From positions 1 through 31,000 of IMG/VR virus record IMGVR_UViG_3300043449_000698: DNA of 31,000 nucleotides; one strand, given 5' to 3'. Position numbers and translations under genes: made by a program. Position 1 is the first letter of the stretch, and every line of letters starts with the position of its first letter. This stretch comes from a virus. Of this stretch, positions 2,145 through 30,542 are shown in pieces. The notes below the pieces were generated by a model. That model was not told the origin of the DNA and did no database searches. It worked only from the letters and a program-made list of their open reading frames with translations.

Positions 2145-2147
2145 TGG

Positions 2148-16288: not shown

Positions 16289-16289
16289 T

Positions 16290-16484: not shown

Positions 16485-16557
16485 TAAATATAACCCTATG
16501 GTTTCAAAGCTAATTCTCTCTTATGTCCCGAAACCCCCACCGGGACCGGGACATCCC

Positions 16558-16640: not shown

Positions 16641-16683
16641 GGCCAGCGGGCTAAACCCTTGATATCGCTATTAAACAAAGCGC

Positions 16684-16713
16684 TTGCATGGAGTAAGCGT
16701 TTGGCCGTATTGT
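16684..16713 (+). promoter_or_regulatory. Candidate early promoter
   Basis: TTGCAT (16684-16689), 18-bp spacer, TATTGT (16708-16713), about 32 bp before ATG 16745 with AGGGAC as ribosome binding site. Hexamers match consensus at four of six positions each. GCTTGCA, as in the 12-bp repeats, overlaps the -35, and CGCTT/AAGCG flank the site as a short inverted repeat. Confidence 0.5.
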
Positions 16714-16744
16714 GCTTGTGTTGAAACCAACAAGGGACACCGCC

Positions 16745-17227
16745 ATGACCGACCTCGCCGACGCCCTCGCCGCCCACAAGCCTGCTCTGGCGCAGTACTA
16801 CGCCGCCAGAGTCGAGCGCCGCTTCGCCAATCTTGTTCAGCGGTTCGGCTCGGGGCTTCGCGGGGTTTACAGTTCCGACGCCGCCACCCTCTGGCAGAGC
16901 ATCGCCGGTCTGGCTAGGCGCGTGAACGGAGTTGTGGTTCTCGACGCCGAGCGTGTCGCTGCCGCCGCGGCAGAGTTCGCCGACGCCACCGTCGCCGCGT
17001 GGGAAGGCAAAATTCAGTCCAAGCTGGGCGAACTCGAAGAGGCGAGCGTGTCTCACCTCGACGGCTACCGCTTCCTGATCTGCGGTCTGAAAGCTGGCCG
17101 CAAAGTGCGGATCGAGCAGGACATGATCCTGAACTTCTCGTCGAAGGGCACGCCCTTCAACCAGTTCCCGGCGCGTATTTACGTCGACGGGAAATTCACC
17201 CCCGCCGCTAAATACGCGGCGCTCTGA
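16745..17227 (+). CDS. Conserved phage protein, unknown function
   Basis: 160 residues from ATG 16745, chosen over an upstream in-frame ATG at 16712 that lies inside the promoter region. The N-terminal ~100 residues are helical and Ala-rich (LADALAAHKPALAQYYAARV, AAAAEFADATVAAWEGKIQS). The C-terminal part, LKAGRKVRIEQDMILNFSSK then GTPFNQFPARIYVDGKFTPA, resembles a conserved ending seen in many small early phage proteins. No catalytic motif is seen. It is the first gene behind the repeat array and candidate early promoter, which suggests an abundant early product. Confidence 0.75.
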   Translation: MTDLADALAAHKPALAQYYAARVERRFANLVQRFGSGLRGVYSSDAATLWQSIAGLARRVNGVVVLDAERVAAAAAEFADATVAAWEGKIQSKLGELEEASVSHLDGYRFLICGLKAGRKVRIEQDMILNFSSKGTPFNQFPARIYVDGKFTPAAKYAAL

Positions 17228-17234
17228 CCAACCG

Positions 17235-17256
17235 GGGGGCCGGGCAACCGGCCCCC
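17235..17256 (+). terminator. GNRA-loop hairpin, copy 1
   Basis: Arms GGGGGCCGG (17235-17243) and CCGGCCCCC (17248-17256) close on a GCAA tetraloop. It is located after a stop codon and just before AAGGAG of the next gene. No T-run follows. An identical 22-nt element is at 18479-18500. Likely an mRNA stability/processing element. Confidence 0.7.
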
Positions 17257-17276
17257 ATCACCCAAGGAGAAACGCA

Positions 17277-17477
17277 ATGACCGACGACATCACATTCATC
17301 CCGCTGGCGGACGGCGACTACCGCCTCCGCATCGTCTCCGACGCCGCGCGCGAGCTGTTCGCGCTCGACTACCCGCGCTATCAAGACGGCGTCGACCTGA
17401 CGCCCGACGAGTGCGACGACCTGATCGAGGTTTGCCGCTATGAGCACCTCACCGCCAACGGCTGGAGGTTCAGATAA
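17277..17477 (+). CDS. Small acidic early protein
   Basis: 66 residues with an AAGGAG ribosome binding site 7 bases before ATG. Sequence TDDITFIPLADGDYRLRIVS, LFALDYPRYQDGVDLTPDEC, DDLIEVCRYEHLTANGWRF. Acidic with an Asp-rich middle. No family recognised. It is coupled to the next gene by TAATG. Confidence 0.7.
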   Translation: MTDDITFIPLADGDYRLRIVSDAARELFALDYPRYQDGVDLTPDECDDLIEVCRYEHLTANGWRFR

Positions 17478-17695
17478 TGAGCGAGGGCCCGTTCCTTTAC
17501 GCGCCGAGGTTGCGCCCGCCGGGCACCGCCACGCTGCCTCGGGGCGGCTGGCGCCTTGTCGCCGCGCCGGTCGACACCGCCTATCTGCGCCCGGACCTGC
17601 CCTGCCACGCCTGGCGCCGCTACGGCATCATCGCCTACGACACGCCGCTCAGTGAGGCGGATATCGAAGCGTTCGCGTTGGAGGTGCTGTCATGA
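17477..17695 (+). CDS. Small early protein, unknown
   Basis: 72 residues, GGAGGTTCAGATA before ATG 17477. Pro/Arg-rich N-terminus (LYAPRLRPPGTATLPRGGWR), then CHAWRRYGIIAYDTPLSEAD and ALEVLS. No recognised domain. Overlaps both neighbours (TAATG in front, ATGA behind), so part of a tight early operon. Confidence 0.65.
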   Translation: MSEGPFLYAPRLRPPGTATLPRGGWRLVAAPVDTAYLRPDLPCHAWRRYGIIAYDTPLSEADIEAFALEVLS

Positions 17696-17865
17696 CCGAC
17701 AACACAACGCCCTTCAGGCCGCCCCTGAAGCCCGTCCCGGCGGCAACCCGCTGCCGGTGCGGGGCGTGGCTGCCCCACGGCTCCACGGCCCGGAAAACGC
17801 CGCACGGCGAGTACTACGACTGCTATGCCTGTCGCCCCCGCGACGCTGAACCTGTGAGGTACTAA
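17692..17865 (+). CDS. 57-residue zinc-ribbon-like protein
   Basis: ATG at 17692 overlapping the previous stop, TAA at 17863-17865. Four cysteines are spaced as a small metal site: CRC (C21, C23) and CYAC (C44, C47), with GAWLPHGSTARKTPHGEYYD between them. Pro-rich N-terminus. Small phage zinc proteins often bind nucleic acid or host RNA polymerase, but there is no direct evidence here. Confidence 0.65.
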   Translation: MTDNTTPFRPPLKPVPAATRCRCGAWLPHGSTARKTPHGEYYDCYACRPRDAEPVRY

Positions 17866-17868
17866 GAC

Positions 17869-18126
17869 ATGCCGCGAATATCTGAAGGAGAGGCCACATA
17901 TTACGCCGTCCTGACGCTCCGGGGCCTTGGTTTTAAAGTCAAGCGCAACCCCGGCGCTAGGAACGCTCACGCCGTGCAAGGCGTCGCGGTGACGACAGAA
18001 CAGCTACTGATCCTCGCCCGCATGGCGAAAGACGTGCAGCAGCGAGCGCACGAGATGGTGCGACAGGACGCCGCACAAGCACCGGTGCAAGAGTGCACTT
18101 GCAAGAAAAAACGGGGCGTGATTTAA
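17869..18126 (+). CDS. Small early protein with Cys/Lys tail
   Basis: 85 residues from ATG 17869. YYAVLTLRGLGFKVKRNPGA, then VAVTTEQLLILARMAKDVQQ (helical) and a tail ECTCKKKRGVI. No family recognised. The start has little Shine-Dalgarno, so coupling to the gene 3 bp upstream is likely. Confidence 0.65.
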   Translation: MPRISEGEATYYAVLTLRGLGFKVKRNPGARNAHAVQGVAVTTEQLLILARMAKDVQQRAHEMVRQDAAQAPVQECTCKKKRGVI

Positions 18127-18162
18127 CTACGTCATCGAATCGGTCAACAGGAGGGACACCAC

Positions 18163-18471
18163 ATGACCAATGTAGCTTACATCACGAACGTATCGCCCAT
18201 CGACCGCCTCGGCGCGATCCGCGCCCAGATCGCGGATCTCAAGAAAATTGAGGACGCGATCCTCGCTGAGGTGAAAGATCTCGGCGTCGGCGAGTACGAC
18301 GGCGCGGATTATCGCGCCACGGTTTCTGAAGTCGCCGAGCGCAAGTCGCTCGACGTGAAGGCCGCGGAAGAGAAGCTCATCGAGCTGGGCGTCGACGGTC
18401 GCTGGTTCTCGCGCAACCAGAAGACCACCAAGGGGTACACGACGGTGCGCGTCACCGCTCGCAAGTCGTAA
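18163..18471 (+). CDS. Small coiled-coil early protein
   Basis: 102 residues after AGGAGGGACACCAC. N-terminal helix IDRLGAIRAQIADLKKIEDA and ILAEVKDLGVGEYDGADYRA, then TVSEVAERKSLDVKAAEEKL and a basic end (TTKGYTTVRVTARKS). The arrangement of a short coiled coil, an (Y/F)RATVSE strand and a DVKAAEEKL helix is common in uncharacterised phage proteins of Gp157-like size. Its 36-bp leader contains one of the very few GANTC sites in the window (GAATC 18137-18141). Confidence 0.7.
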   Translation: MTNVAYITNVSPIDRLGAIRAQIADLKKIEDAILAEVKDLGVGEYDGADYRATVSEVAERKSLDVKAAEEKLIELGVDGRWFSRNQKTTKGYTTVRVTARKS

Positions 18472-18478
18472 CGGCAAC

Positions 18479-18500
18479 GGGGGCCGGGCAACCGGCCCCC
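18479..18500 (+). terminator. GNRA-loop hairpin, copy 2
   Basis: Same 22-nt element as at 17235-17256: GGGGGCCGG, GCAA, CCGGCCCCC, again just after a stop and ~20 bases before the next start. The two copies bracket a block of five small genes. Confidence 0.7.
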
Positions 18501-18520
18501 CCTAACCAAGGGACAAAACA

Positions 18521-18670
18521 ATGGGGATCTACATACCACCGGAACCGCCGCGCCGCCGCGTCGTTGAGTTCCTCGGCTATTTCGGCGCAACCGTCCTGCT
18601 CGGCACTATGCTGATCTCAACGCTAGTGCTCGTGTATATTCTTGGCGAGATTGTGGTGGGGGTGTCATGA
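18521..18670 (+). CDS. 49-residue membrane protein
   Basis: ATG 18521 preceded by AAGGGACAAAACA; TGA 18668-18670. MGIYIPPEPPRRRVVEFLGY is a short basic, Pro-rich N-terminus followed by one transmembrane helix (FGATVLLGTMLISTLVLVYI). Positive-inside rule suggests a cytoplasmic N-terminus. No family recognised; possible superinfection or host-membrane factor. Confidence 0.65.
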   Translation: MGIYIPPEPPRRRVVEFLGYFGATVLLGTMLISTLVLVYILGEIVVGVS

Positions 18671-18834
18671 GCAATCTCGCCACACATTTTGCCCGCGTTC
18701 ATATCACGACAACTCTGGCGGGTCTTGATCTTTGCGCCGCGCAGGATCCCAGCCGCGAGGCCTTGTTCAAGGGGTTTCAGGACAGCCTGCGCGACATGCT
18801 GATCGCGCTGGAGGAGGAAGAGGGCGATGCGTAA
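18667..18834 (+). CDS. 55-residue acidic-tailed protein
   Basis: ATG 18667 overlaps the previous stop by 4 bases. SNLATHFARVHITTTLAGLD, REALFKGFQDSLRDMLIALE, then EEEEGDA. Mostly helical. No family recognised; overlaps next start by 8 bases. Confidence 0.6.
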   Translation: MSNLATHFARVHITTTLAGLDLCAAQDPSREALFKGFQDSLRDMLIALEEEEGDA

Positions 18835-18997
18835 AATAATCACTGATTACGTTTGCCCGCCCATCCCAACGAGCCGCTACGATTGGTGCGCATGGTTCGA
18901 AGACGACGAACCGGACAGCCACGGGAATATGCTCGTGGGTTGGGGCGCGACGGAAGAGGACGCAATTGAGGATCTGCGCGAATGCTCCGAGAGCTAA
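18827..18997 (+). CDS. 56-residue conserved small phage protein
   Basis: ATG 18827, with GGAGGAAGAGGGCG before it inside the upstream gene. Contains SRYDWCAWFEDDEPDSHGNM and VGWGATEEDAIEDLRE; the YDW, GxGxTEEEAI-like pattern is frequent in short proteins of many phages and plasmids. Function unknown to me. Confidence 0.65.
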   Translation: MRKIITDYVCPPIPTSRYDWCAWFEDDEPDSHGNMLVGWGATEEDAIEDLRECSES

Positions 18998-19278
18998 TCC
19001 TCATGGCGTCTGTTGCGCTAGGCTTGGGGATGGCAGTGTGGGGCCTGACACGCCCCTGCCCATCTCTTGAGCCGCACATTGGAACATCACGCTTGAGTGG
19101 AGCTTACGGGAGGGTCGATGACCAAATACTTTACTGCCCCTCATCCTACGGGTGCTTGGTCTGGGCTGTAGTAGAGGGTCGGATCACGGTCTGGACGACA
19201 GACCATGCCGGAGCGCAGAGGATACCAGAAACGCTAGACGCGGCGACGGATTTTGTGGTCGGACTGAAAACATATTGA
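18982..19278 (+). CDS. Membrane-anchored small protein
   Basis: 98 residues from ATG 18982 (GAGGAT upstream), overlapping the previous gene by 16 bases; ATG 19003 is an alternative. N-terminal hydrophobic helix (LILMASVALGLGMAVWGL) followed by TRPC could be a signal anchor or a lipoprotein-like signal, although the Cys is not in a clean lipobox. The rest (QILYCPSSYGCLVWAVVEGR) is a small presumably periplasmic domain with Cys pairs. Exported phage proteins of this kind can act in exclusion or lysis; no direct evidence. Confidence 0.6.
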   Translation: MLRELILMASVALGLGMAVWGLTRPCPSLEPHIGTSRLSGAYGRVDDQILYCPSSYGCLVWAVVEGRITVWTTDHAGAQRIPETLDAATDFVVGLKTY

Positions 19279-19288
19279 TGAGGCAGCT

Positions 19289-19651
19289 ATGACACAATTT
19301 CACAATGTGAATTATGGCCGCGCTTATGTGTTAAGAAGCACAGCGAGGAAAATAGCCCCGTATCGCGAGGAAGTAGCTGTAAGCCGCGACAGTAAGTGGC
19401 GGAAGCTAAAGGTAATAATCTTGCAGCAAGGGGTGTTTTTACGCGAGGGCGATGGGAAAACCATTCCCGTCACTTACAAGTGGGCTGTAGATCAATTGGA
19501 GTCTTTCAGAATATGCTTGCCGCCTTGGCGCGCTAAGAAGATTTATCAAAACCTGTTACGCCGACCATCAGGTGGCGGACCCGTTATAGTGTCGCGAAAG
19601 CAGATTGCGTGGGCGCAATCTCTAAGAGCGCGTGCCGAAACTGTTAAATAG
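19289..19651 (+). CDS. Basic protein, unknown
   Basis: 120 residues, Arg/Lys-rich: TARKIAPYREEVAVSRDSKW, PVTYKWAVDQLESFRICLPP, RKQIAWAQSLRARAETVK. No recognised domain; basic charge suggests nucleic-acid binding. Lower GC than the structural operon, as for several genes between 19 and 22 kb, hinting at a different origin for this segment. Confidence 0.6.
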   Translation: MTQFHNVNYGRAYVLRSTARKIAPYREEVAVSRDSKWRKLKVIILQQGVFLREGDGKTIPVTYKWAVDQLESFRICLPPWRAKKIYQNLLRRPSGGGPVIVSRKQIAWAQSLRARAETVK

Positions 19652-19676
19652 CGCAACGTATTTAGGAGAGGCTTAG

Positions 19677-19898
19677 ATGCAGACGCGCCGAATGTCGTGG
19701 CTTGAGGCGACCACAAATACGATTGTCGGTTTCCTCGTTGCGCTGGCGACGCAGTACGCCGTCTTTCCGTTTGCGGGCATAGAGCTTGACGCCGGCGGCC
19801 ACGTTCTCGTCGCGGTGCCGTTCGTTCTGACGTCGATCCTGCGCGGTTTCTTGCTGCGCCGTTTCTTTAATTGGGTGGACAGCCGATGCGGGCGCTGA
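19677..19898 (+). CDS. Two-helix membrane protein (DUF7220-like)
   Basis: 73 residues after TAGGAGAGG. SWLEATTNTIVGFLVALATQ, YAVFPFAGIEL and VPFVLTSILRGFLLRRFFNW follow the pattern I associate with DUF7220, a small phage membrane protein family of unknown function: two transmembrane helices and a basic C-terminus. Overlaps the next small membrane gene by 13 bases. Confidence 0.7.
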   Translation: MQTRRMSWLEATTNTIVGFLVALATQYAVFPFAGIELDAGGHVLVAVPFVLTSILRGFLLRRFFNWVDSRCGR

Positions 19899-20047
19899 TC
19901 GCAAATAACTGGCCGATGATGGCGGCTATGGTCTTATACACCATCCAAAGTGTACTTTCCCTGCGTAGCGGAAACGTAGGGATCGGCATCGCTTTCATCT
20001 TCTACGCCCTCGCGAACGTGGGGCTGATGCTGGCGAACAAGCCGTGA
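19886..20047 (+). CDS. 53-residue two-helix membrane protein
   Basis: ATG 19886 to TGA 20045-20047. NNWPMMAAMVLYTIQSVLSL and IGIAFIFYALANVGLMLANK form two hydrophobic helices joined by RSGNVG. The pairing with the preceding membrane protein suggests they act together in the inner membrane. Function unknown. Confidence 0.65.
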   Translation: MRALIANNWPMMAAMVLYTIQSVLSLRSGNVGIGIAFIFYALANVGLMLANKP

Positions 20048-20087
20048 TAAACTCCGCGCACGGAACGATGGGGACTAGCGATTAACC

Positions 20088-20103
20088 CGCGCCTGCTGGC
20101 GCG
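20088..20103 (+). other. Short hairpin before metallophosphatase gene
   Basis: CGCGCC (20088-20093), loop TGCT, GGCGCG (20098-20103), followed by AGGGGGG, the likely ribosome binding site of the 20118 gene. Could limit access to that site. Confidence 0.4.
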
Positions 20104-20117
20104 CAGGGGGGCATAAG

Positions 20118-21185
20118 ATGCCGGTAGCACCGTTATCAGACGAGATATTAAAAGACGTTATTGAGGCGATGCGAAAAAACGGCGGCAATAAAGCCGCCGC
20201 TGCGCGAGACCTAGGCATTCCACGCCCGACACTTCAAAGCCGCGTCGAAATTGCTAAGGCTAAGTTTAAGTTGGGCGATGATCTTTTGCCCAATGGCGCA
20301 GCGACACACATTGTCATTCAGCCGCCCTCAGAAGACATGCCTGTCGAAGAATTGATTGCGTGGCGCAAGAAGCAATTTGAGAAAAAGCGCGCGCACAAAG
20401 AGGCCGCCAAATTAATCGACATTCATATTAAAATGCATGGGCCGATTGGCATCGTGCATATCGGCGACCCGCACGTTGATGATGACGGCACGGACATCGC
20501 GCTCATCGAAGAACACCTGAAGATCATTAAAGACACGCAGGGGATGTACGCAGGGAACCTTGGCGACCTTCAGAACAACTGGATCGGACGGCTGGCCCGT
20601 CTGTACGCGGAACAAGGGACTACCCACAAACAAGCGTGGCAGCTCGTCGAATGGATGATGACAAGCGTCGAGTGGCTATATCTCGTCGGGGGTAACCACG
20701 ACGCATGGTCAGGGCAGGGCGATCCGCTAACCTGGATTATGAAAAATAGGAACACAGCGTTCCAGTACCACGGGGCGCGGATGAACCTGATGTTTCCAAA
20801 TAAAAAAGAAGTCCGCATAAACGCCCGCCACGACTTCAACGGCCACAGTATGTGGAACCCGGCACACGGTCCCATGAAAGCTGTGCAAGGCGGTTGGAGG
20901 GATCACATATTAACTTGTGGTCATAAACACACTAGTTTTATAGGCGGCCCGTTGAAAGACCCAGCGTCGGGCTTGCTGTCTTGGGCGATACGTTGCGCAG
21001 GATATAAAACATTCGACAGGTATGCGGAAGATTTAGGCTTGCCGGATCAAAACGCATTCCCAAGCGTCGTCACTATTATTGATCCACGGTATGCGGATGA
21101 TGACCCACGTCTCATCCACGTTGTTCCAGATGTAGAGCAGGGCGCAGATTTCTTGCAATTCTTACGGAGGAAGGCGGGTGTGTGA
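20118..21185 (+). CDS. HTH-metallophosphatase fusion protein
   Basis: 355 residues. Residues ~10-50 (VIEAMRKNGGNKAAAARDLG then IPRPTLQSRVEIAKAKF) form a Fis/NtrC-type helix-turn-helix. From ~110 a calcineurin-like phosphoesterase follows: GDPHVD (D117, H119), GNLGD (D150), GGNHD (N193, H194, D195), RHDFNGH (H238) and CGHKHT (H269, H271), i.e. all metal-ligand motifs. Such enzymes hydrolyse phosphodiesters in nucleic acids or nucleotides. The HTH could place the nuclease on DNA or regulate the gene itself. The fusion is known in phage genomes but its role is not. Overlaps the next gene by one base (TGATG). Confidence 0.8.
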   Translation: MPVAPLSDEILKDVIEAMRKNGGNKAAAARDLGIPRPTLQSRVEIAKAKFKLGDDLLPNGAATHIVIQPPSEDMPVEELIAWRKKQFEKKRAHKEAAKLIDIHIKMHGPIGIVHIGDPHVDDDGTDIALIEEHLKIIKDTQGMYAGNLGDLQNNWIGRLARLYAEQGTTHKQAWQLVEWMMTSVEWLYLVGGNHDAWSGQGDPLTWIMKNRNTAFQYHGARMNLMFPNKKEVRINARHDFNGHSMWNPAHGPMKAVQGGWRDHILTCGHKHTSFIGGPLKDPASGLLSWAIRCAGYKTFDRYAEDLGLPDQNAFPSVVTIIDPRYADDDPRLIHVVPDVEQGADFLQFLRRKAGV

Positions 21186-21535
21186 TGCTGCATTTGACGC
21201 CGGACATGCTGGAAGCCTCTTACGAATTGTTGCGCCAGACGCCGCCTTTTAGGAGATGGAAACTGCCTGAGGCGGATGACGTTATATTTCGCGTCATACG
21301 TTCCGACGATGTGCGCGGCACGTTCGAGCTCGTTAAGGGCCGCATGGTGATTTCGATCAGTGGCAAGTGTGTGGGAAATCTGCACAGCCTGAACGCCACA
21401 ATGGCGCACGAGATGGTGCATCTTTACGAAGACACAATACACAACGCGCGGAAAGACGTGATGCATTCGTCAAGGTTCAAGGCGCTTGCGAAGCAGGTCT
21501 GCAAACATCACGGGTTTGACGAGTTACTGTTTTAG
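21185..21535 (+). CDS. SprT-like zinc metalloprotease
   Basis: 116 residues from ATG 21185. LNATMAHEMVHLYEDTIHNA contains HExxH (H75, E76, H79), followed by a downstream His (H94, VMHSSRF) and HHGFDE. This is the compact SprT/Spartan-like arrangement; cellular members remove proteins crosslinked to DNA. In a phage it could clear covalent protein-DNA blocks or restriction proteins, by inference. Small for the family, with no C-terminal zinc domain. Confidence 0.7.
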   Translation: MLHLTPDMLEASYELLRQTPPFRRWKLPEADDVIFRVIRSDDVRGTFELVKGRMVISISGKCVGNLHSLNATMAHEMVHLYEDTIHNARKDVMHSSRFKALAKQVCKHHGFDELLF

Positions 21536-21547
21536 AGGGGTTCTAAA

Positions 21548-21745
21548 GTGAGAAACAGAAGACACGCTGTAAATTTTGATGTTGGGCCGTTTATTTGCAC
21601 GGTGGGGTTCAACCCGGAAACCGGAGCCCCGTGCGAGTTGTTTCTTGTCTCTCGAGGTAAGTCTGGCACGGACCTAGACGATTGGCTGTACGAGCTGGGC
21701 GTGAAGGCGTCGAAGATCATGCAGGACCGGGAACACGAAGAATAG
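21548..21745 (+). CDS. Small TSCPD-like protein
   Basis: 65 residues from a GTG at 21548. RRHAVNFDVGPFICTVGFNP, TGAPCELFLVSRGKSGTDLD, DWLYELGVKASKIMQ follow the TSCPD-like fold seen in short phage proteins related to a ribonucleotide-reductase accessory domain. Ends in an acidic tail. Function in phages unknown. Confidence 0.6.
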   Translation: MRNRRHAVNFDVGPFICTVGFNPETGAPCELFLVSRGKSGTDLDDWLYELGVKASKIMQDREHEE

Positions 21746-21805
21746 CCTTGCAAGGCGTTCCTTTCAGTGTCTATTGTTACCAAGTGATTTGCCGTGGGGG
21801 CATCA
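21745..21805. promoter_or_regulatory. Gap before gcrA with a perfect 12-bp palindrome
   Basis: The 60-bp gap begins with GCCTTGCAAGGC (21745-21756), a perfect palindrome overlapping the stop of the upstream gene. CTTGCAAGGC also occurs in the gap at 25684-25749. Candidate operator; no clear promoter hexamers. Confidence 0.35.
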
Positions 21806-22183
21806 ATGTGGTCGCAAGCTGATTTAGATTTATTAAAAGACATGTGGCTTCGTGGTTTCTCGAGCGGCATAATTGCTGCCGCGATTGGGAAGTCGCGTGG
21901 CGCTGTCATGGGTAAAGTCTTTCGTCTTAATCTTAAGCGCGAAAAGAAAAAACCAACACACACAACGCAGTCTAAAGACGAAAAAGATTGGTATCGCATT
22001 TGCGAAACATCGGGCGAGTTGTATTTCCCCGGTGCGTATTCGTTGCTGGGATTGAAAACGCGCCAGTGCCGTTGGCCGGTGGCGTACAGTAATCAGCATC
22101 TGTTCTGTGGCGCGGCGCGTATTGGGGCGTCGGCGTATTGCGCCGACCATACTAAGCAGGCTTGGAGGACGAAAAATGGATAG
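21806..22183 (+). CDS. gcrA: GcrA-type cell-cycle regulator homologue
   Basis: 125 residues from ATG 21806 (a GTG at 21794 is less likely). The N-terminal domain SQADLDLLKDMWLRGFSSGI, AAAIGKSRGAVMGKVFRLNL is the GcrA-type helix-turn-helix. The linker is Lys-rich. The C-terminal LGLKTRQCRWPVAY, HLFCGAARIGASAYCADHTK repeats the GcrA signature C-x-WP, FCG, YC-x-x-H (C88, C101, C112, H115). In Caulobacter, GcrA binds sigma70 holoenzyme and activates promoters carrying CcrM-methylated GANTC. A phage copy could redirect host polymerase or compete with host GcrA. Shorter than cellular GcrA (about 170). Strong family match. Confidence 0.88.
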   Translation: MWSQADLDLLKDMWLRGFSSGIIAAAIGKSRGAVMGKVFRLNLKREKKKPTHTTQSKDEKDWYRICETSGELYFPGAYSLLGLKTRQCRWPVAYSNQHLFCGAARIGASAYCADHTKQAWRTKNG

Positions 22184-22367
22184 TGAACAGGAAGAAGCGG
22201 AACGGCGCCGCAGAAAGTATTTAATCGGCGCTAGACCCGAGAGCGTGGAGCTTGTGCGCTACACGTTTGGGCGCGGAATGCGGATGCAAACCATGTACGG
22301 GATTTGGGGCCGTAATTTCGTCGATGCGTGTTTAGGGGAGGACGGGGCAAATGGGCGTACACTATGA
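22176..22367 (+). CDS. Small basic protein
   Basis: 63 residues from ATG 22176 (GGAGGACGAAAA before it, overlapping gcrA by 8 bases); a longer frame upstream lies inside gcrA. EQEEAERRRRKYLIGARPES, VELVRYTFGRGMRMQTMYGI. No family recognised. Coupled to the next gene by a 17-base overlap. Confidence 0.65.
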   Translation: MDSEQEEAERRRRKYLIGARPESVELVRYTFGRGMRMQTMYGIWGRNFVDACLGEDGANGRTL

Positions 22368-22572
22368 CAGAGACGCTCGCGAGATACTTGCGGAGATGAC
22401 GGCTGGTAAAACCGAAGCGGAATATCGCGACTTCATCTGGTCGCTTCGCGAGCCGGTGAAGCCGAAGCGGTCTAGCAGCGGCTGGCCGTATCGTGGGTTG
22501 GAGATTAACGCGCGCGTTGTCACGCCGGCGGGTTCCCGGCGGCTGCGCGCTACGTTTGAGGTGATTAAATGA
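22351..22572 (+). CDS. Small protein, unknown
   Basis: 73 residues; AGGGGAGGACGGGGCAA before ATG 22351. YDRDAREILAEMTAGKTEAE, YRDFIWSLREPVKPKRSSSG, RVVTPAGSRRLRATFEV. Possibly a short phage regulator; no domain recognised. ATGA overlap with the next gene. Confidence 0.65.
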   Translation: MGVHYDRDAREILAEMTAGKTEAEYRDFIWSLREPVKPKRSSSGWPYRGLEINARVVTPAGSRRLRATFEVIK

Positions 22573-22853
22573 CGAAGGCTAAAACGACGCCCGGAGCAGA
22601 CATGCTTCTGGAAGCGGTCAACACCGTCACCCAGCGCGGTCAGGTGTACGGGCCGCCCGCAGTTAATATGCAGCGGACGGCGCGGATATGGAGCGGGATA
22701 CTCGGCGTCGAGGTGACGGCGGTGCAGGTCTGCTTGTGCATGATCGGCGTGAAGATGGCGCGACTGGTTGAGACGCCGGATCACGGCGACAGCGCTCTGG
22801 ATATAGCCGGTTGGGCTGCGTGTTTGAGAGATTGCCAACAGGAGGAGGGTTGA
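22569..22853 (+). CDS. DUF6378 family protein
   Basis: 94 residues: MLLEAVNTVTQRGQVYGPPA, VNMQRTARIWSGILGVEVTA, VCLCMIGVKMARLVETPDHG, DSALDIAGWAAC. This is the DUF6378 pattern (Y-G-x-P, N-x-x-R-x-x-x-x-W, K-x-x-R-L, DHxDSxxDxAGxAA), an all-alpha family related to MazG-like nucleotide pyrophosphohydrolases and frequent in phages. Likely acts on nucleotide pools, but catalysis is unproved for the family. Overlaps its upstream neighbour by 4 bases. Confidence 0.8.
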   Translation: MTKAKTTPGADMLLEAVNTVTQRGQVYGPPAVNMQRTARIWSGILGVEVTAVQVCLCMIGVKMARLVETPDHGDSALDIAGWAACLRDCQQEEG

Positions 22854-22854
22854 T

Positions 22855-23028
22855 ATGACCGAAGAAGAAAAAGGCCTGATAGACGTTTTCGCCTGCGCCG
22901 CGCTGGCGGGGTTTCTTGCGAAGGACGGGAATTTAGCGTTTACGCGAGACACGACGAATTGCGCGTACCGGATCGCGGTTTGGATGGTGAAGGCTCGCCA
23001 GCAGGCGTTCGAGGCGCTCCATGACTAA
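22855..23028 (+). CDS. 57-residue helical protein
   Basis: ATG 22855, preceded by GGAGGAGGGTTGAT, TAA 23026-23028. TEEEKGLIDVFACAALAGFL, AKDGNLAFTRDTTNCAYRIA, VWMVKARQQAFEALHD. Short, probably soluble, helical; the pattern of FACAALAG then AYRIAVWMV is often seen next to DUF6378 genes. Function unknown. Overlaps next start by 8 bases. Confidence 0.65.
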   Translation: MTEEEKGLIDVFACAALAGFLAKDGNLAFTRDTTNCAYRIAVWMVKARQQAFEALHD

Positions 23029-23365
23029 GCCGCGCCCCGAGGTAAACGACCCGTCGTTTAGGCGTGCGGTCGTCGATGATTACGCAACTAAGACAATCGG
23101 TCTAAAGAACTTAGCCGAGAAGTATTGTGTGTCTATCACGACGATACGCAACATATTGAAGATGGAAGGCGTCGTCTTTCACGCAACTGGCGTGCCACTG
23201 AGTAAAACGAAAAATCGCGTTGCACCCGAGAAAATACAGGTTAAAAGCAAAGATGCCAAAAAAACAAAAACTGAAAAGACAGACACCAAAAAAACAGACA
23301 TCGGAAATTACGTTAAGGGCTCTGCGTTCCCTATCTCGCGGGCGCGTCTCATGGCGGGGAGATAA
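23021..23365 (+). CDS. HTH DNA-binding protein with Lys-rich tail
   Basis: 114 residues. DPSFRRAVVDDYATKTIGLK, NLAEKYCVSITTIRNILKME is a helix-turn-helix of the transposase/sigma4-like type, then a Lys/Thr-rich linker (KSKDAKKTKTEKTDTKKTD) and GSAFPISRARLMAGR. Candidate regulator or DNA-binding protein of replication. One base separates it from the next gene, another HTH protein. Confidence 0.7.
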   Translation: MTKPRPEVNDPSFRRAVVDDYATKTIGLKNLAEKYCVSITTIRNILKMEGVVFHATGVPLSKTKNRVAPEKIQVKSKDAKKTKTEKTDTKKTDIGNYVKGSAFPISRARLMAGR

Positions 23366-23366
23366 A

Positions 23367-23606
23367 ATGGACAAGCGACCTATTTCTGATGCAGTCGAGA
23401 AAGCGGGCGGCGCGGTTGTGCTAGGCAAGAAGCTCGGCATCACGCATCAGGCAATTTATCTGTGGGTGCGGCGCGGCTACGCTCCAGTTGAGCGGGCTAT
23501 TCAGCTTGAGAAGCTGTCGGGCGTCGCGCGGCATCTGCTGATTAATCCGAAGCTGGTTAGCGCGATCATTGCGACAGATAAATACGACGCAGCGGATTTG
23601 ATATAG
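23367..23606 (+). CDS. Cro/YdaS-like HTH regulator
   Basis: 79 residues from ATG 23367. SDAVEKAGGAVVLGKKLGIT, HQAIYLWVRRGYAPVERAIQ, LEKLSGVARHLLINPKLVSA matches YdaS/Cro-like repressors (HTH with GKKLGITHQAIYLW recognition region and VERAIQLEKLSG helix). In phages these control early promoters, often as dimers on palindromes such as that at 15502-15525; that link is inference. No partner CI-like gene or integrase is seen, so this does not by itself indicate lysogeny. Confidence 0.8.
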   Translation: MDKRPISDAVEKAGGAVVLGKKLGITHQAIYLWVRRGYAPVERAIQLEKLSGVARHLLINPKLVSAIIATDKYDAADLI

Positions 23607-23610
23607 GGGG

Positions 23611-25683
23611 GTGCGCGTGGCAACGGTGAGCGTAATCGCGCCGCATCATCGGCGCATAGAAGCGCCCGAGGATCTGCGCCGGCTTACCGGCTGGCTGATC
23701 TGGCGTTACGAGACAGTCGACGGCGAGACGAAGCCGCGAAAGGTGCCGTATTACACCGACGGCGGGCGGCGACACGGGCAGCAGGGCAGTCAAGTTGACC
23801 GGGCGAAATTGACGTCGTATGCGGCTGCGCGTGACAGCGCGGCGCGGCGGAATTTCGACGGCATCGGCTTTGCGATGCTGCCGGACTGGCAGATCACGGC
23901 GCTCGATTTCGACGGTTGCGTCGACGCGAACGGCGACATCCCGAGCGAGGTTCTCGAGATCGTCGGTCGGACCTACGCCGAGTATAGCCCCAGCGGCAAG
24001 GGCGTGCGGGCATTCGTGCGCGGCAATCTCGGCAATCATAAATCGCACGCAACGCTGGAGCGCTACGGCTTTGAGACGTTCTCAACGACGGGCTATGTGA
24101 CGTTTACTGGGCATGTCCTGCCTATCGTCGAGATGCTGGGGTTTGAGGATGTCGTCACGCCGGCGGGCGATGCTGTGAAGGCGTTGTGCGCGTCCCGGTT
24201 TGAGAATAGCGCCAGCGGCGGGCAGCTCGAAGACGACCCGTGGGCGGGCTTCGAGCCGAAGCTCAATCTGACCATTGAGCAGATGGAAGCTGCGGTCGCG
24301 CAGCTCGACCCGGATATTGGCCGGGATGAGTGGATCCGCGTCGGCATGGCGCTACACCACGAGACAGACGGCGACGACACGGGGTTCGAGATCTGGAACG
24401 ACTGGTCTACCGGCGGCGGGAAATACCCCACCGAGGAGGCGCTCAGAGCGCAGTGGGAGAGTTTCACGCGGCGCGCAGGGCCCGGCAGGCGTCAGGTCAC
24501 GATGGCGTCGGTACTCAAGATGGTAAAGGCCGCAGGGGGCGTCCTGCCGCGCCCTACGTTGGCGGCGACGGCAGAGGAATTACAGGCCGTCGTCGCTGAA
24601 GCTGCTGCGCTGGCTCAGCCGGGTGCGGGGATGTCGACCCCCGAGGGGTTTACCGGGAAGTATCGGGTTCTCGGGATGGACGCGCTGACGCGCCTGCCGC
24701 CCGTGGACTGGCTAATCAAGGGGGTGCTGCCCCGCGCTGATCTCGTTGTGATGTTCGGCGCCAGCGGCGCCGGGAAGACGTTCGTCGCGCTTGATATCGC
24801 GATGTCGATTGCGCGCGGCTCCATGTGGCGCGGCAAGCGCACGAAGGCGGGCCGGGTGGCGATCATCGCCGCCGAGGGCACGGGCGGGCTTGGCAAGCGG
24901 GTGCAGGCGTATCGGGACTATCACAATCTGTCGGGCACGCTGCCGATCGGCGCGATACTCTCGGCGCCCAATTTCTTACAGCGCGAAGAGATAAGCGAAG
25001 TTGTGGCGGCGGTAACAGCGTCCGGCGGTGCGGATCTGATCGTGGTCGATACATTCGCGCAGGTGACGCCGGGCGCGAACGAAAACGCCGCTGAGGATAT
25101 GGGCCTCGCGCTCTCGCATGCGAGGGTGCTGCGTGAGGTCACAGGCGCGACGGTGCTGCTGGTACACCACGCGGGTAAGGATGCGAGCAAGGGCGCGCGC
25201 GGCTGGTCGGGCATCAAGGCTGCCGCCGACGCGGAGATCGAGATCATCCGTCACGACAGCGGAGAACGCGAGATCGCGATCAGCAAGATGAAAGACGCGG
25301 AGGACGGCGCGCGGTTTGGGTTTAAGCTCGAGACGCTGGTTCTCGGGCTGGATGGTGACGGCGACGAAATAACATCTTGCGTTGTCGCAGAGGCCGAGAC
25401 GCCGAGCGCGGCGTCGGGCGGAGACGAGGATCGTAAGAGCGTCAAGAAGCTCGGTCGCGTGGCGCAGCACATTCTCGACTGCATAGAGTTGATAGACCCG
25501 ACGCGGCAGACCATGCGGCTCGATAGCTTTATCAGCCTGTGCGCAAACGGCATGCCTGCACCGGAGGAAAACAAGCGGGACACGCGGCGGCATTCTGTTA
25601 AGCGCACGCTGATGTCGATGTCGCGGATAAAAGACAACCCGCCGTTTACCGTGGAAAAAGACTTTATTGTTTTTGGTGTTTAA
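23611..25683 (+). CDS. Primase-helicase (PriCT-2 and RepA-like ATPase)
   Basis: 690 residues from a GTG at 23611; a GTG at 23617 has better spacing from AGGGGG and may be the true start. N-terminal primase-polymerase-like region: FDGIGFAMLP, ITALDFDGCVDANGD (D99, D101), AEYSPSGKGVRAFVRG. Residues ~222-290 (AAVAQLDPDIGRDEWIRVGM, ALHHETDGDD, FEIWNDWS) are a PriCT-2 domain. From ~362 an AAA_25/RepA-like hexameric helicase: Walker A GASGAGKT (383-390), Walker B LIVVDT (476-481), LLVHHAGKD. It would unwind DNA and lay primers for the polymerase encoded downstream. Complete. Confidence 0.9.
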   Translation: MRVATVSVIAPHHRRIEAPEDLRRLTGWLIWRYETVDGETKPRKVPYYTDGGRRHGQQGSQVDRAKLTSYAAARDSAARRNFDGIGFAMLPDWQITALDFDGCVDANGDIPSEVLEIVGRTYAEYSPSGKGVRAFVRGNLGNHKSHATLERYGFETFSTTGYVTFTGHVLPIVEMLGFEDVVTPAGDAVKALCASRFENSASGGQLEDDPWAGFEPKLNLTIEQMEAAVAQLDPDIGRDEWIRVGMALHHETDGDDTGFEIWNDWSTGGGKYPTEEALRAQWESFTRRAGPGRRQVTMASVLKMVKAAGGVLPRPTLAATAEELQAVVAEAAALAQPGAGMSTPEGFTGKYRVLGMDALTRLPPVDWLIKGVLPRADLVVMFGASGAGKTFVALDIAMSIARGSMWRGKRTKAGRVAIIAAEGTGGLGKRVQAYRDYHNLSGTLPIGAILSAPNFLQREEISEVVAAVTASGGADLIVVDTFAQVTPGANENAAEDMGLALSHARVLREVTGATVLLVHHAGKDASKGARGWSGIKAAADAEIEIIRHDSGEREIAISKMKDAEDGARFGFKLETLVLGLDGDGDEITSCVVAEAETPSAASGGDEDRKSVKKLGRVAQHILDCIELIDPTRQTMRLDSFISLCANGMPAPEENKRDTRRHSVKRTLMSMSRIKDNPPFTVEKDFIVFGV

Positions 25684-25749
25684 TGCTTGCAAGGCATAGA
25701 TTGCGGCATTAGGTTGTTAGCGTTAGTGCATTGTTTTATGGAGGGACAG
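25684..25749 (+). promoter_or_regulatory. Gap after primase-helicase gene
   Basis: 66 bp with CTTGCAAGGC (25686-25695), shared with the gap before gcrA, then an AT-rich run and GGAGGGACAG before ATG 25750. A weak TTGTTA-N17-TATGGA pair is visible but not convincing. Confidence 0.3.
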
Positions 25750-26046
25750 ATGGGTAGTGTACACGCTTTGCGTGATCGTAATTATTATCGAATGTTGAGT
25801 GACGGTCAGCTCATTGAGTTGACGAAGAGCGCCCAGAGCGAATTGATGCTTGTTCTGGGCGAGCGGCTTGAGGAACTGGAAGCCGCAGAACAAGCGGTTG
25901 CTGAATTGTCTCAAGAGGTGAACGACCTCGAGGAGCGACTCGGTTTATATCAAGACGAGGTTCTGCACATGCAGGCCCGCATTGATGATCTTGAATTGCG
26001 AATTGCTGACTTGCAAAATGAAGGGGACAACGATGAGCGGATTTAA
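25750..26046 (+). CDS. Coiled-coil protein
   Basis: 98 residues from ATG 25750 (GGAGGGACAG). After a short basic N-terminus (HALRDRNYYRMLSDGQLIEL) almost the whole protein is one heptad-rich coiled coil (RLEELEAAEQAVAELSQEVN, EERLGLYQDEVLHMQARIDD, LELRIADLQNEGD). Likely dimeric. No family recognised. Overlaps next gene by 14 bases. Confidence 0.7.
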   Translation: MGSVHALRDRNYYRMLSDGQLIELTKSAQSELMLVLGERLEELEAAEQAVAELSQEVNDLEERLGLYQDEVLHMQARIDDLELRIADLQNEGDNDERI

Positions 26047-26404
26047 GCTACAGGTCACGCTGACAGGCGCGACCATCGAAGAAATGGTTGCGGCGCTTGA
26101 TGCAGCGCGTGAACAGCTTGTGGGCGGCAAGCCTGCAAAGGCTGAAAGCGTTGCGCCCGCGCCGAAGGTTACGGAGAAGCCGGTCCAGAAGCCGGTTGAG
26201 AAGGCTCCAGAGCCGAAAGAGCTTACCTACGACTACGAAAAAGACATCGTGCCGAAGGTGCTGAAGGCCGTCGAGGTTTGCGGCAAGACGTTCGTGGCGG
26301 AATGTCTGGCGAAGTATGGCGCGAAGCGTGCGAGCGAGATCGACGCTACTTGGATGCCGGAGTTCCTTGGCCGGCTGGAAGAAGGCATCAATGGCTCACG
26401 CTAA
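26033..26404 (+). CDS. Conserved protein before DUF2800 nuclease
   Basis: 123 residues from ATG 26033 (AAGGGGACAACG). GFKLQVTLTGATIEEMVAAL opens, then a Lys/Pro/Glu linker, then DYEKDIVPKVLKAVEVCGKT, CLAKYGAKRASEIDATWMPE, FLGRLEEGI. The C-terminal helical domain recurs in phage proteins next to ssDNA-binding and nuclease genes. Exact role unknown; a recombination or replication accessory is plausible. Overlaps the DUF2800 gene by 14 bases. Confidence 0.7.
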   Translation: MSGFKLQVTLTGATIEEMVAALDAAREQLVGGKPAKAESVAPAPKVTEKPVQKPVEKAPEPKELTYDYEKDIVPKVLKAVEVCGKTFVAECLAKYGAKRASEIDATWMPEFLGRLEEGINGSR

Positions 26405-27587
26405 GTTCAGCCCGAGTGCAGCGCACCGTTGGATGCGCTGCCCCGGCAGCCTCGTGCTTGAGAGCACGGTGCCGGATAAGCCGTCTGCCTATGCGGCGGA
26501 GGGCACGGTGGCGCATGAGATCGCGGCGCAGTGCCTTACGCTAAATGTCTCGGCAGATAAGTATATCGGCCACACGATCACGCACGACGGGTTCTCGTTT
26601 GAAGTGACGAGGGAAATGGCTTCGCACATCGACGACTACGTTAAGCTCGTCCGGGAGTACGCGGAAGGCGGAAGCCTGCTAGTTGAACAGCGGGTTGAGT
26701 TTTCAGACACGATAAACGTGCCGGATAGTTTCGGCACGGCGGACGCGCTTATAGTTCACGGCGACCGCATTACGCTGGTCGATCTGAAATACGGGATGGG
26801 CGTTAAAGTAAGCGCCGAGAACAACGAACAATTGAGGTTGTACGCCCTCGGCGCGTTGTCTCAGTACGAAAGCGTCGGCGACTTCAAAGAGGTATTGGTG
26901 GTGATCCACCAGCCCCGACTGAACCACGTCTCCGAATGCTACATAGATCTGCCCTCGCTGAAGAGCTTTGGTTCTATGGCGCAGGAGATGGCGGACAGGG
27001 TTGAAGACGCACAGCGTAACTGGAACTCGGCCCCCGACTGGAACGATACCTATCTCGCCCCCGGCGAGAAGCAGTGCCGTTTCTGCCGCGCAAAAGCTAC
27101 ATGCCCTGCGCTGCGTGCTGAAATAACAGACGTTGTCGGAGACGTTTCTACCGTGTCCGATTTTGCTGATCTGGCGCAGGTGCCGGACGATCAGCTATCG
27201 CGCAGCATGGCGCGCGTAGATATCGTCGAGCAGTGGTGTACCGCTGTCCGCGCTGAAGTGGAGCGGCGTCTGCTCAACGGCGAAAGCGTGACAGGCTGGA
27301 AGCTCGTCGAAGGCCGTAAAGGCGCTCGCGCTTGGGGCGATGAAGCAGCCGCCGAGAAGGTTATGCGTAAGGCGCTCAAGGCTGGTGATATCTGGGAAAA
27401 GAAATTGATTAGCCCCGCGAAAGCGGAGAAGCTATGCAAAGGAAGTCCGTCGTTGTGGAACGAGCTTACAAAAGTCGTGACGCAATCTGCGGGTAAACCA
27501 TCAGTGGCACCCGCCATTGATAGACGATCAGAACTGATCGTTTCTAATGTCGCGGACGAACTCCGCGATCTAGCTGCGAATAGCTAA
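26391..27587 (+). CDS. DUF2800 Cas4/RecB-like Fe-S nuclease
   Basis: 398 residues from ATG 26391. SAAHRWMRCPGSLVLEST (C17), AEGTVAHEIAAQCL, then PD-(D/E)XK core FGTADALIVHGDRITLVDLK (D118, D131, K133) with GMGVKVSAENNEQLRLYALG (Q147). A late cysteine cluster KQCRFCRAKATCPALR (C229, C232, C238), together with C17, forms the four-Cys iron-sulfur site of Cas4/AddB-like nucleases. C-terminal ~130 residues add a KLVEGRKGARAW-type domain usual in DUF2800. The family lies beside phage DNA polymerases with DUF2815 and probably processes DNA ends during replication or recombination. Confidence 0.88.
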   Translation: MAHAKFSPSAAHRWMRCPGSLVLESTVPDKPSAYAAEGTVAHEIAAQCLTLNVSADKYIGHTITHDGFSFEVTREMASHIDDYVKLVREYAEGGSLLVEQRVEFSDTINVPDSFGTADALIVHGDRITLVDLKYGMGVKVSAENNEQLRLYALGALSQYESVGDFKEVLVVIHQPRLNHVSECYIDLPSLKSFGSMAQEMADRVEDAQRNWNSAPDWNDTYLAPGEKQCRFCRAKATCPALRAEITDVVGDVSTVSDFADLAQVPDDQLSRSMARVDIVEQWCTAVRAEVERRLLNGESVTGWKLVEGRKGARAWGDEAAAEKVMRKALKAGDIWEKKLISPAKAEKLCKGSPSLWNELTKVVTQSAGKPSVAPAIDRRSELIVSNVADELRDLAANS

Positions 27588-27613
27588 TTGCTATCTGCTA
27601 AAGGAGAAGTGCA

Positions 27614-28180
27614 ATGCAAATCCGTTTGAAGAGTGTTCGTATCGCGTTCCCGGCGCTTGCTGAACCGGAAGCGTTTGGCGATGGAGAGCCTGCGTATCAG
27701 GCCAAGTTTATCATCGAGCCGAAGAGCGAACAGGCGAAGCTGCTCACAACGACCTTGAAGAAGGTTGCCGAGGAGCAGTGGGAGGAGAAGGGCAAGGACG
27801 TTCTTTCCCTGCTGACGGAACAGAAAAAGGTCTGCTATGTTGAGGGGCCGTACCGCAGCAATAAGACCGGAGAGGCTTATGCCGGTTTTGAAAATAACTA
27901 CTATCTGAGCGCCAGAAACGCCAAGAACCAGCCCAAGATCATTGATAAGCACGGCGTGGAAGTGTCCTCGCCGCGCGATATCAAGAACCTGATCTACTCG
28001 GGCTGCCACGTTCATGCGATTGTTGATCTCTGGGCTCAGGATAATAAGTGGGGGCGCCGTATAAACGCCACGCTGAAAGGCGTGATGTTTGCGGCGGATG
28101 GTGAGAGCTTTGGCGGTTCTAGTGTCGCGACCGCTGACGACTTCGCCGACCTCGCTGTTAGCGCCGAGGACTTCGTTTAA
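27614..28180 (+). CDS. DUF2815 single-stranded DNA-binding protein
   Basis: 188 residues after AAAGGAGAAGTGCA. IRLKSVRIAFPALAEPEAFG, PAYQAKFIIEPKSEQAKLLT, AYAGFENNYYLSARNAKNQP and SGCHVHAIVDLWAQDNKWGR, INATLKGVMFAADGESFGG follow DUF2815, an OB-fold ssDNA-binding family of phages. The C-terminus is acidic (DDFADLAVSAEDFV), like the protein-interaction tail of SSBs. Located between nuclease and polymerase genes, it should coat ssDNA at the fork. Confidence 0.9.
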   Translation: MQIRLKSVRIAFPALAEPEAFGDGEPAYQAKFIIEPKSEQAKLLTTTLKKVAEEQWEEKGKDVLSLLTEQKKVCYVEGPYRSNKTGEAYAGFENNYYLSARNAKNQPKIIDKHGVEVSSPRDIKNLIYSGCHVHAIVDLWAQDNKWGRRINATLKGVMFAADGESFGGSSVATADDFADLAVSAEDFV

Positions 28181-28191
28181 GGAGCACAACG

Positions 28192-28449
28192 ATGTCTAAT
28201 ATCGGCCATAACAGCGTGGCGGCGGACCTAGTCCGTAGCTATGTGGAACGGATAGAACGCCTCGAAGAAGAGAAGAAGGCTATATCCGATGACATTCGCG
28301 AAATCTGCGTTGAAGCAAAAAGCGCTGGTTTCAATGCGAAGGTCATCCGCAAGCTGGTTGCGTTGCGGCGGCAAGACGAGGGCAAGCGGAAGGAAGAACA
28401 ATCCATGCTTGATCTCTACGCCTCGGCAATCGGACTAGATCTCGTTTGA
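28192..28449 (+). CDS. gapR: GapR/DUF2312 nucleoid protein homologue
   Basis: 85 residues after AAGGAGCACAACG. LVRSYVERIERLEEEKKAIS, DDIREICVEAKSAGFNAKVI, RKLVALRRQDEGKRKEEQSM, LDLYASAIGLDLV is an excellent match to GapR (Caulobacter GapR is 89 residues), with the IERLEEEKK coiled coil and the VIRKLVALRR helix. GapR is an alphaproteobacterial protein that clamps overtwisted, AT-rich DNA ahead of replication and transcription and stimulates type II topoisomerases. In a phage replication operon it could manage positive supercoils at the fork. It is encoded just after the DUF2815 gene and followed by a terminator. Confidence 0.92.
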   Translation: MSNIGHNSVAADLVRSYVERIERLEEEKKAISDDIREICVEAKSAGFNAKVIRKLVALRRQDEGKRKEEQSMLDLYASAIGLDLV

Positions 28450-28490: not shown

Positions 28491-28583
28491 CTGGCGGGGC
28501 GCGCATCTGGTGGCGCGCGTTAAGGTGTCCCTCCAGCGCGGTCGCGCAGCCTCTTGCGCGCCCTCCCAGAGAAGAACGATATC

Positions 28584-30542
28584 ATGACGACACTTTGGTT
28601 AGACCTCGAAACGTATTGCGAACTGCCGATCACGGTGGGCACGCACGCCTACGCCGAGAAGGCGGAGGTGCTGCTGGCTGCCTATGCGGTAGACGACGCG
28701 GATCCCGTCGTGCTCGACCTGACGAATGGCGCTACGCTTAACGATATCCAGACGCTGATAGACAACGCCGACAAGGTCGTGATCCACAATAGCGCGTTTG
28801 ATCGGACCATTCTAAAACACCAGAATGTTCACCTGCCCGTTCAGAAAATACACGACACAATGGTGCAGGCGCTGGCGCACAGTCTGCCGGGGTCGCTTGG
28901 GGCGTTATGCCAGACCCTTGGTGTGCCTGTCGACCAGAGCAAGGACATCGCGGGCAAGAAACTAATTCAGCTATTTACCAAGCCGAGGCCAAAGGCGCAG
29001 AAGCTGCGCCGGGCGACACGCGAGACACACCCGGACGAGTGGCGGGCCTTCTCGGATTACGCCGCCCGCGACATTCTCGCGATGCGCGCCGTGAGCCTGA
29101 AGCTGCCGAAGTGGAACCTTGCCGCCTTCGAGCGCGCCGTCTGGGAGGCCGATCAGGCCGTGAATGATCGCGGCATCGCCGTGGATCTTGATCTGGCCCA
29201 CGGGGCACTACGGGCATTCCGTAGTGAAGCCCAGCGGCTGGCGGTTCAGATGTTCGACCTGACAGGGGGCCGGGTCGTGAGCGCGACGAAGCGCGATAAG
29301 CTGTTAGAACACCTCGTCGGGGCGCACGGTCTTACGCTTGAGAGCCTCACCAAAGGCGACGTCGACGCTATTTTGAAAGACGCTGGCACCGGCACAGAGG
29401 TCCGCGCCCTTTTGAAAAACAGACAACAGGCGTCGGCAACCAGCCCCGCGAAATACAGCGCGCTGATTAAAGGAACGTCGAGCGATGGGCGCCTGCGCGG
29501 CACATTGCAGTATTGCGGGGCTGGCCGCACCGGGCGGTGGGGCGGTCGGCTTTTCCAGCCGCAGAACCTGCCGCGCCCGACGCTGTCCGTCACGCAGATT
29601 GAGAATGGTATCCGCGCGATGAAGGCGGGCTGCGAAGACCTTTTGGTCGCCAACGTGTCCCAGCTCTGTTCGAGCGCTGTGCGCGGCGCGCTGATTGCGG
29701 CGCCGGGCCGGAAGCTGGTTGTCGCGGATCTGGCGAATATCGAAGGCCGAATGCTCGCATGGCTGGCGGGCGAGGAGTGGAAGTTGCAGGCGTTTCGTGA
29801 TGTCGACAGGGGCGTGGGGCATGATCTCTATGTGCTCGCGTACTCACGCTCGTTCGGCGTCACCCCCGAGGCGGTGCTCAAGAACAAGAAATCGGGCGAC
29901 GGCAGGATGAGGCAGATCGGCAAGGTGCAGGAGCTGGCGCTCGGCTATCAGGGCGGCGCCGGGGCGTTTCTGTCGATGGCTGGAATTTACGGCATTGTGT
30001 TGAGCGAGACGGAAGTCGCGGAGATCGTGAAGGCGTGGCGCAAGGCGCACCCCGCGACTACCCGGTTCTGGTACGATGTGGAACACGCCGCGAGGCGCGC
30101 TGTGCGGGGCGCGGGCGATGTCTTCAGCGTCGAGGCCGTCCGTTTCGACGTGAAGGACGGGTGGCTTAGGATCCGCCTGCCCTCGGGCCGCTATCTTTGC
30201 TACCCAGACGCCGTCGTAGGTGATGACGGGCGCCTCACCTACATGGGCATGAACCAATACACGCGGAAGTGGGAACGTCTCGAGACTTATGGCGGAAAGC
30301 TGGTCGAGAATATCGTGCAGGCCGCCTCGCGCGATGTCCTCGCGCATGGGCTTCTGGGCGCGGAGAAGGCAGGCTATCAGGTCTGCCTGCACGTTCACGA
30401 CGAGCTGATCACAGAGACGCCGGATAAACCTGATTATACGGCTGAAGGGCTTGAGCAGATCATGGCGACGAACCCCCCGTGGTCTCTAGGCCTGCCCCTC
30501 GCAGCCGCTGGCTACGAGGCCTACCGCTACAGGAAGGATTAG
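28584..30542 (+). CDS. Family A DNA polymerase with 3'-5' exonuclease
   Basis: 652 residues from ATG 28584, with a weak GAGAAG upstream; a TTG at 28554 lies in the leader. Exonuclease: DLE (D7, E9), HNSAFD (N69, D73), YAARD (Y159, D163), all catalytic acids kept, so proofreading is expected. Polymerase: motif A VVADLANIEGR (D382), motif B RQIGKVQELALGYQGG (R443, K447, Y455), motif C VHDE (H605, D606, E607). Motif A reads DLANIEGR instead of the common DYSQIELR, as in the DUF2800/DUF2815-linked phage polymerases. No 5' nuclease domain. This is the replicative polymerase; it ends 2 bp before the VRR-NUC gene. Confidence 0.93.
   Translation: MTTLWLDLETYCELPITVGTHAYAEKAEVLLAAYAVDDADPVVLDLTNGATLNDIQTLIDNADKVVIHNSAFDRTILKHQNVHLPVQKIHDTMVQALAHSLPGSLGALCQTLGVPVDQSKDIAGKKLIQLFTKPRPKAQKLRRATRETHPDEWRAFSDYAARDILAMRAVSLKLPKWNLAAFERAVWEADQAVNDRGIAVDLDLAHGALRAFRSEAQRLAVQMFDLTGGRVVSATKRDKLLEHLVGAHGLTLESLTKGDVDAILKDAGTGTEVRALLKNRQQASATSPAKYSALIKGTSSDGRLRGTLQYCGAGRTGRWGGRLFQPQNLPRPTLSVTQIENGIRAMKAGCEDLLVANVSQLCSSAVRGALIAAPGRKLVVADLANIEGRMLAWLAGEEWKLQAFRDVDRGVGHDLYVLAYSRSFGVTPEAVLKNKKSGDGRMRQIGKVQELALGYQGGAGAFLSMAGIYGIVLSETEVAEIVKAWRKAHPATTRFWYDVEHAARRAVRGAGDVFSVEAVRFDVKDGWLRIRLPSGRYLCYPDAVVGDDGRLTYMGMNQYTRKWERLETYGGKLVENIVQAASRDVLAHGLLGAEKAGYQVCLHVHDELITETPDKPDYTAEGLEQIMATNPPWSLGLPLAAAGYEAYRYRKD

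Follow-up and report, generated by a model that had tools for sequence, protein, structure and literature searches.

GcrA and GapR homologues in a GANTC-poor marine bacteriophage fragment

A bacteriophage that encodes homologues of both GcrA and GapR raises the question of whether the two proteins act as a pair, together commandeering cell-cycle transcription and chromosome topology in the host, or serve separate ends. We examined this question for a marine bacteriophage fragment of 31,000 nucleotides (hereafter the window), which comprises positions 1-31000 of IMG/VR virus record IMGVR_UViG_3300043449_000698. An earlier note on this DNA had proposed that two such regulators in one early region reflect a strategy of capturing host control. 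The account that we favour, and consider fairly probable, is an RW-like replication module with GapR as one of its components, joined by an accessory GcrA that would act as a sigma70 cofactor, the two proteins having separate functions and GcrA having host promoters or non-canonical sites as its targets. In place of the tempting story of two captured regulators and one strategy, this account offers two claims that can each be tested: that GapR belongs to a replication module, and that GcrA is an accessory.

Layout of the window and identity of the two proteins

The left arm of the window carries terminase, portal and head protein genes on the minus strand, while the right arm carries small open reading frames (ORFs) followed by replication genes on the plus strand. 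The window is most likely part of a tailed phage whose host is an alphaproteobacterium. A 51-kb sibling contig, IMGVR_UViG_3300017766_001762, shows ~95% identity to the window over most of the common stretch, and its GcrA and GapR proteins are both 98% identical to those of the window, with two amino-acid changes per protein. Among the other genes, a GroES-like co-chaperonin match (phrog_3188, E 1e-8; 9810-10235, minus strand) adjoins the large portal-protein ORF, and a metallophosphoesterase-type protein with an N-terminal Fis-type helix-turn-helix (HTH) and a match to a PHROGs DNA repair exonuclease family (20118-21185) precedes a SprT-like gene. The tail-gene arm of the sibling encodes, at its positions 16488-18707, a 739-residue protein with a beta-1,4-glycosyltransferase match (phrog_13126).

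The gcrA (21806-22183) and gapR (28192-28449) genes are both on the plus strand, ~6 kb apart, and share a block with the replication genes; gene content is the basis for calling this block early. The neighbouring genes described next lie on the same strand. A YdaS/Cro-like HTH gene (23220-23606; PF15943, E 1e-10 on 23220-23603), kept across the phage family with 36-49% matches in relatives, stands 5′ of the primase-helicase gene, and its HTH occupies residues 55-101 of a TTG-started ORF whose start codon is tentative. The primase-helicase gene (23611-25683; phrog_2850, phrog_906 and phrog_15962) is followed by genes for a DUF2800-type exonuclease (26316-27587; phrog_69, E 3e-107), a DUF2815, Gp2.5-like single-stranded DNA-binding and annealing protein (27614-28180; phrog_112, E 3e-35), GapR and DNA polymerase A (PolA; 28554-30542; phrog_17, E 6e-122).

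Judged by its sequence, the product of the gene at 21806 is a genuine two-domain GcrA. The ORF encodes 125 amino acids from its ATG, or 129 from an alternative GTG 12 bases upstream, and matches the PF07750 profile in two stretches with 77.3 bits against a curated cut-off of 26.9 (E 2.2e-21). The protein also matches the solved GcrA of Caulobacter crescentus (7ye1, 5yiu, 5yix) through both an N-terminal HTH (residues ~2-45) and a C-terminal sigma-interacting-type domain (~76-122), which are separated by a linker (~48-75). The HTH and the C-x-W-P, FCG and YC-x-x-H signature that the earlier note had read from the letters are borne out, the latter as CRWP, FCG and YCADH with C88, W90, P91, F100, C101, G102, Y111, C112 and H115 all kept. 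This C/W/P/C/G/Y/C/H core varies little or not at all among 56 chromosomal GcrA proteins, a panel found with a query of two joined Caulobacter GcrA segments and biased by having been picked in part via the helix motif NAVIGKVH.

Structure prediction, which the earlier note had proposed alongside profile searches, is consistent with this assignment. In the AlphaFold2 model, confidence is high for the HTH, fairly high for the C-terminal domain and low for the short linker. Foldseek aligned it with 5yiv, a structure of the GcrA DNA-binding domain together with methylated DNA (0.8 Å over 44 residues), and with 5yix, in which the sigma-interacting domain is paired with domain 2 of sigma70 (2.0 Å over 47 residues), although this agreement depends on sequence evidence, given that cellular GcrA proteins were in the alignment and AlphaFold was probably trained on the same structures. 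With its sigma-binding core retained, the protein could plausibly act on the RNA polymerase of the host.

The 85-residue product of gapR deserves its earlier description as a near-textbook GapR. It covers the PF10073 (UPF0335/DUF2312) profile from 1 to 72 of 72 with 96.9 bits against a cut-off of 22.6 (E 5.3e-28) and matches solved GapR structures (6cfx, 6ozz and others) with E values down to 1e-22. When aligned to 6cfx, most basic positions overall are kept or exchanged between lysine and arginine. Six lysines line the DNA channel of GapR (PMC6853979).

A conserved GapR and a sporadic GcrA

The gapR gene lies between the genes for the DUF2815 protein and PolA, and the order primase-helicase, DUF2800, DUF2815, GapR, PolA is common to the window, ten IMG/VR relatives (L004, L084, L085, L086, L088, L089, L090, L092, L093 and L107) and Caulobacter phage RW (gp051 to gp057); one more relative, L105, is colinear up to GapR. 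Searches of 31 contigs carrying a related primase gave PF10073 matches in 14, and GapR is widespread in phages, with 153 phage records matching. On this gene order, the most likely role of GapR is that of an accessory to replication within a conserved phage module. It would be a long-standing component of the RW-like module, an ancestry read from gene order in the case of so short a protein. By comparison with its Caulobacter counterpart, it most likely encircles overtwisted DNA in front of the phage replication fork and assists host topoisomerases in relaxing that DNA.

The distribution of GcrA is far more restricted. The near-identical sibling carries PF07750, which was detectable in none of 30 further IMG/VR contigs with a related primase; many of these contigs are fragments, such that absence in some could reflect truncation, and several span 38-58 kb. 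In two sets of further GapR-bearing viral contigs, those with a GcrA score above the cut-off numbered 4 of 49 and 6 of 29. Isolated phages that carry both families are RW and three of its relatives (GB2A, RLK and KcrB), Atu_ph08, DMCA and Gurke. The pairing is recurrent, not obligatory, and GcrA, as far as profile matches reveal it, is an accessory of this phage family that occurs sporadically. Phage GcrA, phage GapR and their co-occurrence in isolates were each already known.

These distributions bear directly on joint capture of the host. Each protein is a true member of its family, and the two are found together in several other phages, where their genes may be adjacent (Atu_ph08) or within 1.4 kb of each other with an adenine methyltransferase gene nearby (DMCA). 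However, colinear relatives keep GapR without detectable GcrA, which argues that GcrA is a separate accessory regulator, and the small fractions of GapR-bearing contigs with GcrA above the cut-off also count against a joint strategy, which we consider unlikely. What survives of the capture interpretation is the membership of both proteins in their families and the retained sigma core. In Caulobacter phage DMCA, the GapR, GcrA and adenine-specific methyltransferase genes fall within ~3 kb (418-3777).

GANTC depletion and the GcrA recognition helix

Methylated GANTC is the site of action of canonical GcrA (PMC3667746, PMC7403470). The window contains nine GANTC sites where dinucleotide shuffles predict 132 (s.d. 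11), and seven of its large genes contain none where synonymous-codon shuffles predict 16.6. Twelve module relatives of the same primase lineage, all lacking GcrA, together have three sites against 766 expected; ten of these have GapR on the contig and two end before the GapR slot, and the contigs are related and do not count as independent events. Near-erasure was thus seen in the window and in the twelve relatives L004, L084, L086-L093, L105 and L107. Depletion is milder in 15 primase relatives without GapR, whose modules are rearranged (385 sites seen, 760 expected), in 80 GapR-bearing viral contigs pooled (0.28 of expected) and in host chromosomal loci (0.32 of expected). Some GANTC depletion is thus usual among alphaproteobacteria, whereas the near-erasure in this phage family is not. 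Several of the GANTC-poor relatives are also strongly short of CCNGG (0.12-0.26 of expected).

Because GcrA-less relatives are the most depleted, near-erasure is independent of GcrA. A stronger depletion in GapR-bearing phages with GcrA than in those without was sought and was not significant (median 0.20 versus 0.27, p 0.10).

One conceivable role for GcrA is that of a stage-specific activator of the phage itself, which would turn on phage promoters by way of methylated GANTC, the canonical site. In favour of this role, the gcrA gene is grouped with the replication genes, and the scanned ORFs revealed no RNA polymerase of the phage's own, so the phage must direct that of its host. However, eight of the nine GANTC sites lie inside listed ORFs, and the only one outside them (GAATC at 18137-18141, 26 bases 5′ of the ATG at 18163) is AAATC in the sibling, which led us to reject the remaining sites as GcrA promoter marks. 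Likewise, no match to an N6/N4 methylase (PF01555) was found in the window or sibling. Such an activator is quite improbable, although a minor canonical role for GcrA on phage DNA through the few remaining sites may exist. A promoter scan of window positions 16200-23700 gave fewer matches than shuffled sequence. Other alphaproteobacterial phages encode GANTC methylases (PMC5537653, PMC7139368).

The recognition helix provides a second view of GcrA targeting. The phage helix, SRGAVMGKVFR, keeps R31, A33, V34, G36, K37, V38, R40 and L41 of cellular GcrA and differs by T30S, N32G, I35M and H39F, changes of possible functional weight. In a second panel of 12 cellular GcrA proteins, chosen for their resemblance to the phage protein without a helix pattern, Asn is present in 12 of 12 and His in 11 of 12 (Asn in the remaining one), where the phage protein has Gly32 and Phe39. 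Among 20 phage GcrA proteins in an alignment read by eye, Asn is kept in nine and His in three, with phiCbK among those changed; the differences from the cellular panel (Fisher's exact test, p 0.002 for Asn and 3e-5 for His) involve phage sequences that are not fully independent. A retargeted GcrA would rest on two helix residues, Asn to Gly and His to Phe, and may be a general phage device given how common changed helices are among phage GcrA proteins. Of the surfaces whose loss would have spoken against the capture interpretation, the sigma-binding core is kept and the DNA-recognition helix is partly changed (N32G and H39F).

This combination is also what might be expected of a decoy that sits on domain 2 of sigma70, does not bind DNA productively and turns off host promoters that depend on GcrA. 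In phage RW the two halves are even separate genes, gp049 being SID-like and gp061 HTH only. A pure decoy, however, would not need the HTH fold or the many core and basic residues kept in the phage protein (W2, W14, R31, K37 and R40), and we regard inhibition of this kind as an unlikely function.

The tie of GcrA to DNA methylation put forward in the earlier note is doubtful, with GANTC nearly absent from the phage, the lone intergenic site lost in the sibling and helix positions changed that are invariant in cells. The near-absence of GANTC together with the altered helix suggests that GcrA probably acts on promoters of the host or on some other sequence instead of methylated GANTC in the phage. 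In the favoured account of an accessory cofactor gained by this phage line, the GcrA C-terminal domain most likely docks on sigma70 domain 2 of the host while the HTH steers host RNA polymerase and biases transcription during infection; both steps are predicted from the retained domains. Its targets would most likely be host promoters or non-canonical sites in preference to methylated GANTC in phage promoters.

Enteric phages avoid GATC. We found no paper on phage avoidance of GANTC in the literature searched, and such reports may exist elsewhere. As a tentative and rather doubtful extension, this family may have purged GANTC beyond the depletion of its likely hosts, hiding phage DNA from the cell-cycle circuit that relies on methylation, after which the line represented here could have added an altered-helix GcrA that steers host RNA polymerase without titration by its own genome. 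Restriction avoidance is an alternative to evasion of CcrM and GcrA that would account for the depletion as well. The near-erasure of GANTC makes this family well suited to asking whether phages of alphaproteobacteria escape the CcrM/GcrA network.

Comparison with known systems

The closest known systems are RW and its relatives GB2A, RLK and KcrB, which share with the window the primase-helicase (54% identity to that of RW), the DUF2800 and DUF2815 proteins (the RW homologues are annotated as such), GapR and PolA (59%) in the same order, and which also carry GcrA-family genes. In RW, however, the GcrA signature is split between gp049 (3300-3863), which falls below the family cut-off and lies just upstream of the primase-helicase gene, and gp061 (14254-14571), ~10 kb away and downstream, whereas the window has a single two-domain gene upstream of its primase-helicase.

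Phage-encoded GcrA is also exemplified by gp222 of phiCbK, for which up-regulation of host replication functions has been proposed (PMC3556154). The phiCbK genome is far larger (205-216 kb), and its GcrA has 182 amino acids with the helix TKSAVCGKADR. Agrobacterium phage Atu_ph08 (PMC6630229) resembles the window in carrying both families, with gp5 (GcrA) next to gp4 (GapR), but the neighbourhood consists of cytosine methylase and terminase genes and its GapR bears only a 'hypothetical' annotation. Erythrobacter phage R34L1 likewise has a GapR, but the paper describing it mentions no GcrA; its authors call GapR an auxiliary gene and the first in a phage (PMC12185513), a claim that, judging by the 153 matching phage records, describes something widespread. 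Finally, the GcrA and GapR proteins of C. crescentus share domain folds and core residues with those of the window, whose GcrA differs in its shorter linker (125 versus 173 amino acids overall) and in the Asn-to-Gly and His-to-Phe changes of its helix.
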